A DNA stretch of 64,000 bases, from positions 186,001-250,000 of the forward strand of contig NW_022985071.1 in NCBI RefSeq assembly GCF_010015585.1. Reading direction: 5' to 3'. Below the pieces are notes generated by a model. The model did not search any database. It saw nothing but the letters and a program-made list of their open reading frames with translations, and was not told where the DNA came from. This document shows positions 39,609-43,830 of the stretch, in pieces (positions within the stretch are counted from its first letter, which is position 1; each line of letters starts with the position of its first letter). This stretch comes from Eremomyces bilateralis CBS 781.70. Lineage: Eukaryota; Ascomycota; Dothideomycetes; Eremomycetales; Eremomycetaceae. A program made the translations under genes and the position numbers.

Positions 39609-40004
39609 ATGCCTTCTCCCCCCCAAATCATCCACGCTTACCGCACCCTCTATCGCACCGGCCTCCGCGCCCTCAAATACCACCTCCACCACCGACGCGC
39701 CCTCCTCACCCACCTCCGGCACGCCTTCCGCACGAACCCCCCCTCCGCCTTCTCCCCCCAAAAGATCGCGAACACCGTGACGTTCCTGCGGGTGGCGGCG
39801 CGGCGGCAGCCGGCGAGCGTGGAGTATCGGGTGTTGGTGAACTTGCTGAATGCGGGGTATCATCGGGAGCGGCGGCTGGCGAAGGGGAAGGCGATGCCGG
39901 TAGTGGGGACGGTGGAGAGGGGGGTGAGAATGCATAGAGTGTATGAGGGGTTGGATTGGGAGGTGAGGATGTTGAATGAGAGTATGGGGATGTGCTTGCA
40001 ATGA
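39609..40004 (+). CDS. DUF1763-like small basic protein
   Basis: A single exon of 131 aa, with ATG at 39609 in good context (tcaccATGcc). The N-terminal pattern IIHAYRTLYRTGLRAL followed by RRALLTHLRHAFR is typical of the short fungal DUF1763 family and resembles LYR-type helical proteins of mitochondria. The protein is very basic (RVAARRQPASVEYRVLV), which fits mitochondrial import. The GC-rich third positions agree with a real gene. The function is unknown. It is convergent with the CCDC25 gene, about 166 bp apart. Confidence 0.72.
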   Translation: MPSPPQIIHAYRTLYRTGLRALKYHLHHRRALLTHLRHAFRTNPPSAFSPQKIANTVTFLRVAARRQPASVEYRVLVNLLNAGYHRERRLAKGKAMPVVGTVERGVRMHRVYEGLDWEVRMLNESMGMCLQ

Positions 40005-40170: not shown

Positions 40171-41210
40171 TCACCAGAAGTCATCTTCCTCATTCGCCCC
40201 TCGATTCTGATTACTCGACTGCTCCATCGCCTCCTCCGAAAACAAATCGTCGTACGCGTGATCCTTCTGATACGCCTTCTCCTTCCGCTCCTTCGCGATC
40301 CGCACCTCCTCCTTCGACTGTAGATCTTGTCAACACGGCCCTGCAATCGGAAGACCTCTCAAGTGCGGTGAATTTAAACTTACCCTCGCCTGCCGCGCCG
40401 CCTGATCCCGCCGCCGCAAGTCCTTCTGCCGGTCCTCTTTCTCCTCCCGGAGATTTGGATGCCGTTCGACTTTCGTCTTGTTCAGGCGATTGACGATGGG
40501 GTTTTCGCGTTGGGGGATGTGGATTTTCTTGACCTGATGGCCGTTAGATACCTTATGACAAATTGTTACGATGATCTCGAACGGTACCTTCTTGTTGTCC
40601 TTGAAGCCCACCTGGCCAGCGTCCATACGGCCGTCTTTCTTGAGGTTGGACCATGGAGTGTAGATGACGGTGACGTTGTCCTTTTTGTTTCCTGGTTAGG
40701 AGGTTAGACTAGATTACACGAACACTTCGATCTGGATGATCTCCCAGGTGGCATACCTTCTATAGAATTCGCCTTCGTCAACTGCGCGCAGTCTTCCAAC
40801 AACTCTGTCGGAATTTCATTCCACGTCTGCCCGTCCGGCAACCGCAAGTAGACATGTGCACTCGACAAATTGTCGACGTGGAACTATATCGAGTACTCTA
40901 GTCAACCCAATACTCCGTGCCGCCATAGAAAATTTATCGAGCTTACCCTACAGCGCAGTCAGCACCCATATAAACCCACCCAGACAGGCTCGAAGTCGGC
41001 GACAACACTCACCACACATCCTCCTCCCAGCCAAATTTAATCAATTCTTCATCTGATACAGAAACATCTGTTAGCCTAATCCGTTCTTCCTCGATAAATC
41101 GGCGGATGCGTGCCGCGAAGGGATCGTGAGCATGTACTTTCAAATTTGTCTTTCCCCACATAGATGAAGGCGGAGGGCGACACCACATTGCTGGTGAAGA
41201 AATAGACCAT
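40171..41210 (-). CDS. CCDC25/Jlp2 family (NFACT-R) protein
   Basis: The exons on the minus strand are 41210-41138, 41052-41013, a single base 40947, 40883-40757, 40691-40588, 40533-40384 and 40317-40171, giving 213 aa. The protein follows CCDC25 end to end: [76 protein letters not shown]. It ends in a charged Arg/Lys/Glu helix and an acidic tail (DDFW). The NFACT-R fold binds RNA; in animals CCDC25 is also reported as a DNA sensor at the membrane. Two introns (40948-41012 and 40884-40946) are separated only by one G, which completes the Trp codon of WFHVD. A further 54-nt intron (40534-40587) is in frame and stop-free. Confidence 0.9.
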
Positions 41211-41594: not shown

Positions 41595-43830
41595 CTAATC
41601 CACACTCTCCTTCTCCCTCACATGCCATATCGGACTCCTCCCCCCCCTCACCGGACTCCCCGTCCGACTCCTCACCAACCGATCCCGACTCTCCACCCGC
41701 GCCATCAACCCCTCCCCCCCTCTCCCTTTCCCCGGACTCCCTACCCCCAATCCCAACGCCACCCCTTGCCCGATCAAATCCCCTCCCGACGGTCCATCCC
41801 CCCTCGGCGTCGCCCATCCGGAACTCCGCCCCGCCGCCGACACCAATCGTGAACTCGACGGCCGCATCGCAGACGCGGATACCGGCGACTCGTCGGAGTA
41901 CGCCTCCTCGACGTCGCCGAGCTCGAAGGCCGCAGGGTCGTCGAGGTCGGTGGCGGCGACACGCTCGTAGCGGGGATCGCGGTGGGAGCCGAAGACCTGG
42001 GTGACGAGCTTGAGGGGGCCGGCGCGGTGGCGTTTGGTTGGTGGGGGCGGGGCGCGGCGGAGTTTGGCGAGGAGGGAGGAGCGGCGGGTGCGGCCGAGGA
42101 GGAGGTAGGTGGCGAGGAGGAGGATGAGGGCGAAGAGGAGGAGGCCGGGGATGCGGCGGGGGGAGTCAGTGGAGAGGGGGTCGGGACGGTCTTTGGGGGG
42201 AAGGGGGGAGGTGGTGTGGTTGGTGGAGGAAGAGGGGTGGGAGGGGAGAGAGGAGCCGCCGGCGGGGTGCCAGTCGGGGGTGGTTTCGACGTTGAGTTTG
42301 TTGGGGCCGAAGCCGACGAGGTAGGGATCGGTCATGGCTTTGGGGGCGGGGGGGACCTGGGAGGAGGCGTAGAGGATCATTTTTCCAAGGGTCCAGGAGA
42401 CCTCGACTCCGTCGATCTTGTCGACGGCTTGGAACGGGTCAACGTAATCGGTGGTCGACTTTGAGCTCGCGGACAGACCGTGCTTGTCGCCTTTGGATTT
42501 GCTGTGTTTTAGGGTGGTGTTATGGGAGGATTGCTCGATCCCAACGCGAGGCACGCCGATCCCCTCGTGAAGCATGTTGATGAGCCAACTGGCCTTGAAG
42601 CACACTTCCCTCGCCGTCTCCTCGTCCACCTTTTTGCCCCATTGCTTGCCGACCTGGCCGCTCTGGATCGCTCCCCACGGCTGGCTGCAGAATTGGTCTA
42701 CCATGGCTTGATAGCTTTTGAAATCGTAACCCCGGTCGGTGTGCGCCATCTCGAACACTTGGTGGGTGGTATGCCAGTACTCGCTGACGCCAACGAAATG
42801 GTTCACATCGAAGTCGAGCGCTGGAGTGTGTACGCCGTGCACGAGACATGGCTTGTCGGGACATGGTGCATCCTTTTCGAGGAGCGGGTACGTTGCGTGC
42901 AAGCATTCCGAGAAGATTCCGGTGCCCAGCAAGTGCGGCTTGCGTCCAAGCCACTCCTCCGACCCCTCAGTAATCGGTTTTCCTTGCGTCGTGACGTTGA
43001 GTCCCTGAGGCAAGCATGGATCGGGCACCTCTGCGAGTTTGTGTTCGGTGTAATCCAGCAATTTGTTGACGTATCGTTCCCGTGCTTTGTTAACGCCGAA
43101 CTCCAGCCACGTTGTCACGAAGACCCGGTACTCTTGGGGCAACCCGTCCATGGTTCGCAATCGGAGGAGCGTCAGGTCGTTCGCATGCTTCTCGGCTTCG
43201 GTGGTGTTTGGCGCGAAAGCAATCTGTGCCGATGCACCCCCCATATCCAGGAACCCATACGTATGATGATCTTTCCCATGGTCATGGTGTTCCGGTTCAT
43301 CAAAGCTCTGTAGTAGGTAGTTCGCAGCGATCCAACCGTACAGCCCTTCGGTCTCTCCTGGGATGATCTGAATGTGGATGTCGCAGTCTGGGAGGTGGAA
43401 GTTGGTGTGGGATTGTGCATAAGCGCAGACTTCTTTTAGGATGGCCGATTGTTCATATGGTTGGAGGAGTCGCATGCCAGCCGTGGCGAGGAGGAAGATC
43501 GGGGTATTGGCGACTTCATCTTTTTCGACGATGTTGAGAGCATGCGAAAACAATTCTTCTAGATAGCCGCCGACCTCTTCCGGCTTATCGTTGAATGTGG
43601 ATATCCCTAGGAGAGAATTAATCTCGACAATTGCAATCGTGGCTTAAATATACCGTACCAGGCTTCTTCTTGACGGTCCAGTCCTTTCTGGTTTCGAGTC
43701 TCGGAAGGCTACGCAGGTCTTTTGCGTTGGCCTTCGCGCGGGCCTTATCCGGCTTCAACCATTTGTATACATGGAGTCGAGTGCCCGATGACCCGGCATC
43801 CAAAATAACCCCGTAACTCCACTTGCCCAT
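41595..43830 (-). CDS. YND1: Golgi apyrase, GDA1/CD39 family (Ynd1-like)
   Basis: Two exons (43830-43659 and 43606-41595) give 727 aa. The intron is 52 nt (GTACGG..CTCCTAG). Apyrase conserved regions are all present: ACR1 ILDAGSSGTRLHVY (about 9-22), ACR2 LATAGMRLL (about 97-105), ACR3 YGWIAANYLL (about 147-156) and ACR4 GFLDMGGASAQIAF (about 175-188). A later GAIQSG lies in the ACR5 area. One membrane segment (LLLFALILLLATYLLL, about 546-561) near the C terminus, with a long basic/Ser tail after it, matches Ynd1 rather than the N-terminally anchored Gda1. It hydrolyses nucleoside di- and triphosphates in the Golgi lumen, which supports nucleotide-sugar exchange for glycosylation. Confidence 0.92.

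Follow-up and report, generated by a model that had tools for sequence, protein, structure and literature searches.

How the codon of Trp38 is put together is the question raised by the CCDC25 gene of Eremomyces bilateralis CBS 781.70, a dothideomycete according to a lineage look-up. The first two bases of the codon stood at the end of one exon, the next codon was found 129 nt further on, and those 129 nt held two sets of intron signals around a single G. The gene was studied within a stretch of 64,000 nucleotides, called the window below, on a contig of 1,525,390 bases in a genome of 26.6 Mb. A sequence-only reading of the window had explained the arrangement by either a one-nucleotide microexon or a two-step splice akin to stwintrons. 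The microexon was well supported in the present analysis. The two-step splice was not, since the signals of both introns were complete in the unspliced DNA.

The gene occupied window positions 41210-40171 on the minus strand, and translation of the spliced exons gave a product of 213 aa with the WFH motif intact. The product was identical in 213/213 residues to P0001, the public protein model of Eremomyces bilateralis CBS 781.70 annotated as coiled-coil domain-containing protein 25. The NFACT-R_1 domain (Pfam PF05670) was recorded over residues 1-112 with 119.6 bits, the cut-off being 29.8. A solved CCDC25 (7eof_B), which we take to be the human protein, matched the product with an E value of 2.9e-60 and read IWFHVD in the corresponding stretch. 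Trp-Phe-His also showed no variation in the 16 intact homologues picked for alignment. Two neighbours of the gene were noted. A GDA1/CD39 nucleoside phosphatase (290.5 bits) was located upstream of CCDC25 at 41598-43643 on the minus strand. A convergent open reading frame at 39615-40004 on the plus strand gave no Pfam match at E 0.001 and contained a YRTLYRTGLRAL stretch, which we take to be reminiscent of LYR-motif proteins.

The exons and introns were placed on the minus strand as follows. Exon 1 (41138..41210) started with the ATG at 41210, its translation agreeing with P0001, and was followed by an 85-nt phase 1 intron (41053..41137) with the signals GTACAT, CTAAC and CAG. Exon 2 (41013..41052) ended in GAT GTG TG, the last two letters being bases 1-2 of the Trp38 codon. 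The first intron of the pair (40948..41012, 65 nt, phase 2) had a GTGAGT donor, a CTGAC branch site at 40962-40958 and a CTGTAG acceptor, with the branch A 11 nt from the intron end. The G at 40947 supplied base 3 of the Trp38 codon. The second intron (40884..40946, 63 nt, phase 0) had a GTAAGC donor, a TTGAC branch site at 40905-40901 and an ATATAG acceptor, with the branch A 18 nt from its end. From 40883 onwards TTCCACGTC resumed as exon 4 (40757..40883), beginning with TTC CAC GTC for Phe-His-Val. The remainder consisted of a 65-nt phase 1 intron (40692..40756), exon 5 (40588..40691), a 54-nt phase 0 intron (40534..40587), exon 6 (40384..40533), a 66-nt phase 0 intron (40318..40383) and exon 7 with the stop codon (40171..40317). 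Hence, the order of a 65-nt GTGAGT intron, a G and a 63-nt GTAAGC intron given in the sequence-only reading was confirmed to the base (41012-40948, 40947 and 40946-40884).

The four other introns of the gene measured 54-85 nt and had CTAAC or TTGAC branch sites. Both introns of the pair fell inside that length range and carried branch sites of the same kinds. Each of them therefore looks ordinary, whereas one fused intron would, at 128-134 nt, stand out. The AG and the GT of two complete introns thus flanked one base, and this base was needed for both the reading frame and the conserved motif. Skipping of the G shifts the frame and leads to a stop, retention of the first intron produces an immediate stop (TGG TGA), and retention of the second one produces a stop 14 codons past Trp. 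Two further AGs were observed within 6 nt after the branch A of the second intron (TTGACTAGAG, 40905-40884 on the minus strand), upstream of the ATATAG that is used; neither occurred in the open solutions with the GTAAGC donor in the enumeration described below. The 129 nt matched their own genome only at the locus itself in a search that skipped common words, which gave no sign of an introner or repeat origin. A common origin of the two introns was not indicated by global alignment either, the score being 19.0 against a shuffled mean of 19.7 and being reached by 573/1000 shuffles.

The uniqueness of this solution was investigated by two enumerations. Single introns of 35-160 nt with a GT or GC donor were enumerated over the exon region around Trp38, as were pairs of GT-AG introns of 35-110 nt each with at most 40 nt in between. 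Three single introns left the frame open, and just one of them reached TTC, namely the 134-nt GAT|GTGTGG...ATATAG|TTC, which deletes Val-Trp. Its donor is an in-frame decoy at the Val37 codon (41012..41017, minus strand); splicing from there to ATATAG yields GWEED|FHVD, which is how the error appears in relatives. Among the 14 intron pairs that left the frame open, a single one encoded DVWFHVD, and the same pair was the only one in which both donors agreed with GTRNGY. The earlier statement that only TG + G + TTC yields Trp-Phe-His accordingly held, the described pair being the sole two-intron solution for DVWFHVD with introns of 35-110 nt. The number of open pairs rose to 43 under wider limits (introns of 20-130 nt, at most 60 nt in between). 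The sole other pair that kept VWFHVD under those limits was rejected, as it inserted Pro before this stretch and required a 29-nt intron. The claim that no other acceptor keeps the frame was correct for the GTGAGT donor, whose only in-frame acceptor for introns of 35-160 nt ended at 40861, outside the interval, and destroyed WFHVDNLSS. The same claim failed for the 134-nt intron from GTGTGG to ATATAG.

The frequency expected by chance was estimated by counting pairs of elements of 45-110 nt, each with a GTRAGY donor, a YTRAY branch site and a YAG acceptor, that lay n = 0-30 bases apart. The count covered both strands of 264 kb of the E. bilateralis genome (the window and 20 loci) and five Markov shuffles. 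Two strict pairs were found, one with n = 14 and one with n = 1, the latter being the CCDC25 locus, whereas the shuffles gave a mean of 0.04 pairs per n over the whole 264 kb. The looser donor GTRNGY gave seven pairs in total, again with n = 1 once, against 0.21 per n in the shuffles. The acceptor-G-donor arrangement is more than chance would provide.

Very probably, G 40947 acts as a constitutive one-nucleotide exon, with the canonical GT-AG introns of 65 and 63 nt being removed on either side of it. Inclusion of the G in the mRNA would join TG + G + TTC into Trp38-Phe39 and produce the junction GTGTGGTTCCAC. Only one base separates the first acceptor from the second donor, so the two sites would exclude each other sterically and could not be occupied at once; the introns would therefore have to be removed one after the other. 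Either order should work and no two-step construction of a splice site would be needed, since all six splice signals are complete. Removal of the first intron first would leave TGG|GTAAGC, and removal of the second one first would leave CTGTAG|GTTCC, both of which would be ordinary substrates. When the first intron is taken out, the bases at -1 and -2 before GTAAGC stay the same (GG), and changes occur only at -3 and further upstream. Short-range intron definition should favour the pairing of each donor with its own acceptor. The risk of such an arrangement would be a direct joining of the outer sites, by which the G would be lost and the junction GTGTGTTCC formed, a frameshift expected to end in a premature stop.

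Further, gene models of homologues were compared at codons 37/38. The best 120 of 5228 matches of an unaimed search were aligned to P0001. Two aimed searches used the junction region of models lacking Val-Trp as queries, favoured such models by design, and contributed the best 120 of 1886 and the best 120 of 528 matches; the three lists together held 281 distinct proteins. In the unaimed list, 14/120 models had an insertion or deletion at these codons, nine of which were deletions of exactly two residues, and the remaining indels of the list comprised two extensions at the N-terminus, an insertion after residue 115 and a deletion at the C-terminus. Over the matches of the three lists together, 150/281 were wrong at the codon, 140 of them missing exactly Val-Trp so that D was joined to FH and ten, including P0056, having another error there; 131 were intact. 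Intact models made up 84/98 of the genome-annotated ones in the unaimed list, and the structure may be absent in many of those species or simply well annotated there.

The residue before Trp in the 131 intact listed proteins was Val in 118, Ile in 11 and Leu in 2. Since a Val codon is GTN, it makes a decoy donor available. When one GT-AG intron was forced on the E. bilateralis locus, the same Val-Trp loss resulted as in the models of relatives. This common error points to the same structure in those relatives, as on the E. bilateralis locus it is the only way for a gene finder that allows one ordinary intron to reach TTC. Lineage look-ups for nine species carrying the deletion gave Sordariomycetes, Dothideomycetes, Eurotiomycetes, Lecanoromycetes, Leotiomycetes, Pezizomycetes and Geoglossomycetes as well as Zoopagomycota (Piptocephalis) and Glomeromycota (Geosiphon). 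Val-Trp was missing from models of, among others, Glonium stellatum, Cenococcum geophilum, Verticillium dahliae VdLs.17, Sporothrix schenckii, Exophiala dermatitidis and Terfezia claveryi; intact models came, for example, from Lineolata, Trichodelitschia and Pleosporales. Verticillium dahliae was represented by an intact and a deleted model that were otherwise identical (211/211), Phyllosticta citricarpa and P. paracitricarpa differed only by VW (211/211), and two P. citriasiana models, one intact and one deleted, agreed otherwise in 210/211 residues. Since models from the same or sister species differ by VW alone, Val-Trp do not seem to have been truly lost.

Other errors were also recorded at this codon. 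Between D and FHV, P0183 (Sporothrix schenckii) read TDEFR, while P0153 (S. epigloea) and P0273 (Elasticomyces elasticus) read VCVR. As far as protein letters can tell, the Arg before Phe in these three models would fit AGG, that is, the acceptor AG plus the exon G with the second intron next. The same interpretation was tried on P0049, P0078, P0087, P0104, P0220 and P0242 and did not fit. The models P0049, P0078 (Sodiomyces), P0104 (Remersonia) and P0242 (Vezdaea) showed VWFF, VWWF and NDGAF at the same codon, and a simple decoy donor did not explain these forms. Elsewhere in the gene, the Trichoderma viride model P0192 (203 aa) lacked ten residues, VSFHDQRKAS, that were present in P0193 (213 aa), and five further Trichoderma models were also 203 long, which suggests a second annotation error in CCDC25. 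No relative was found in the viral contigs searched. The genome contigs searched yielded one locus, L005 (3000-3060), where about 60 nt of CCDC25-like sequence (LIKYGLPHDVWFHVDNLS) had no intron at the site. The contig, which is attributed to a Schlesneria MAG, passes at its end from bacterial-looking sequence into LIKYGLPHDVWFHVDNLS and looks chimeric or contaminated.

A separate group was formed by 32 proteins for which lgn, jgi or ena contigs were the only source. The error occurred in 0/32 of them and in 150/249 of the others (Fisher p 2.5e-12, which is not a clean probability as the lists were selected); within the unaimed list alone the figures were 0/22 and 14/98. In 29/32 the protein had 212-222 residues, the contig was 0.9-5 kb long, and the coding sequence ran unbroken across the intron positions of the window gene, whereas P0236, P0278 and P0281 were shorter and had unrelated ends. 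The features of these 29 are the reason for taking the short contigs as presumably spliced RNA. One such protein, P0027, was identical in 211/211 residues to P0222, the genome model from Glonium stellatum, and had VW in addition, and another, P0017, was 99.5% identical to the Cenococcum model P0118, again plus VW. As these two proteins correspond to genome models with VW added, Val-Trp is very likely encoded in the mRNA of such relatives, even where annotation of their genomes did not place it. P0001 and, in a relative, P0027 also lend indirect support to the presence of the exon base in mature mRNA.

Several other explanations of the locus were considered. True use of the decoy donor GTGTGG, giving a protein that lacks Val-Trp, would involve a 134-nt intron that is GT-AG and in frame, and 140 listed relatives were annotated in this way. 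However, Val-Trp was missing in none of the 32 short-contig proteins, was present in P0001, and was carried by P0027 where the Glonium genome model lacked it; V. dahliae had both model forms, and GTGTGG deviates from GTRNGY. Such a splice is extremely unlikely to be the natural one. Equally hard to credit is a single 128-nt intron with non-canonical ends (GT..TA or TG..AG) that yields TGG TTC. The mRNA would be identical, and an aligner without microexons would draw it so, but a junction other than GT-AG would be required although two complete GT-AG introns with frame-restoring spacing are present. We also considered it very improbable that one G had been lost before GTGAGT by an assembly error, the true gene having one ordinary 129-nt intron after TGG. 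The sequence comes from one assembly, and a base could have been dropped in the short G run GTGTGGTGAG. An error of this kind would nevertheless leave a complete acceptor-G-donor pair with branch sites to have arisen by chance, which happened once in 264 kb against 0.04 per n in the shuffles. It would make the intron 1.5 to 2.4 times as long as the four others of the gene, and it would leave the 150/281 listed homologue models that are wrong at the same codon unexplained.

The remaining alternative was a stwintron, in which one intron is nested in the splice signal of the other and the order of removal is fixed. With two short introns side by side in a filamentous ascomycete, which would be excised in succession, the locus resembles [D1,2] stwintrons as these are presented in PMC5639578, PMC9024468 and PMC12403724. 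Against this, no interruption was seen in the donor, branch site or acceptor of either intron, and no nested signal was found. GTAAGC and CTGTAG were complete in the genomic sequence, so the second site does not await the first removal. A [D1,2] stwintron requires the T of the outer donor after the internal acceptor, where G-GT was found here, and no family of sister copies was seen, the 129 nt having matched their own genome only at the locus. It would be most surprising if the pair were a stwintron after all. Judged from its sequence, the structure is a one-nucleotide exon, not a stwintron.

The wrong gene models also bear on the age and the spread of the one-nucleotide exon. They make it likely that many other Pezizomycotina have the same structure at their Trp38 codon, overlooked there by annotation software, and that it is probably ancient in this group. 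We lean, with less assurance, towards a one-nucleotide exon that was present in the Pezizomycotina ancestor, perhaps before the split of Dikarya from Zoopagomycota and Glomeromycota, and that has been kept since, many models dropping Val-Trp by annotation error. Retention since such ancestors would span hundreds of millions of years. The same model error could also come from a GC-AG intron or some other non-standard arrangement, above all in the distant Zoopagomycota and Glomeromycota. Should the structure really have the age implied by the annotation errors, arrangements of this kind would be able to survive for a very long time, the structure could serve as a phylogenetic marker, and many public proteins of the CCDC25 family would be without the conserved tryptophan only on paper. 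A one-nucleotide exon from a fungus would also be a convenient model, the gene being conserved, its introns short and its relatives tractable.

One-base exons as such are already known, and what would be unusual here, if confirmed in DNA, is the age and spread. Among the matches listed from the open PMC literature, no paper concerned a one-base exon of CCDC25, nor one of any fungal nuclear gene besides CYP621A, and nuclear ones were few altogether (APC11 and VPS55 in plants, CYP621A in Fusarium); in PMC8208691, the term stood only in the reference list. The word rare used in the sequence-only reading thus suits the literature searched, but the structure is of a known kind and may be common across fungi, hidden by annotation error.

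In organelles, a one-base exon is described between group II introns in the mitochondrial rnl of an Ophiostoma relative, a fungus (PMC12308204), and another is reported for placozoan cox1 (PMC5436844). Both share with CCDC25 a single base between two introns, although the rnl introns are mitochondrial group II and not spliceosomal. The case of Trichoderma Xlr2 (PMC11121469) likewise concerns a microexon in a filamentous ascomycete, with regulated inclusion, unlike that proposed for CCDC25. Fungal stwintrons, as outlined in PMC5639578, PMC9024468 and PMC12403724, are also adjacent short introns of Pezizomycotina that are excised successively and misread by automatic annotation. There, the inner intron splits the outer splice signal (PMC5639578), while the CCDC25 introns are complete with an exonic base between them. 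The 1-nt microexons of plant APC11 and VPS55 are, by the account of PMC4674806 and PMC8831610, conserved across land plants, missing from the reference annotation and tested by RT-PCR, APC11 also by reporter constructs; in Arabidopsis APC11 the exon consists of an A within an interval of 422 nt (PMC4674806). The CCDC25 exon is 1 nt long as well, but those cases concern plants and other genes, and here a G stands between introns of about 64 nt.

The closest case was the single-nucleotide exon of Fusarium CYP621A (PMC12940212). According to that paper, the interval with AG-G-GT is short (139 nt in F. graminearum), the base is required for a conserved motif, and RNA reads are given. Transcripts derived from gene models are almost all wrong at this exon, one correct transcript standing beside an exon-less model, and the authors call it the first one-base exon for a fungal gene. 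CCDC25 is likewise a fungal nuclear gene with AG-G-GT, a base in a conserved motif and models in relatives that probably miss the exon. The two differ in that the CYP621A G occupies the second position of a Gly codon and is described for Fusarium, whereas the CCDC25 G is the third base of a Trp codon and may span classes.
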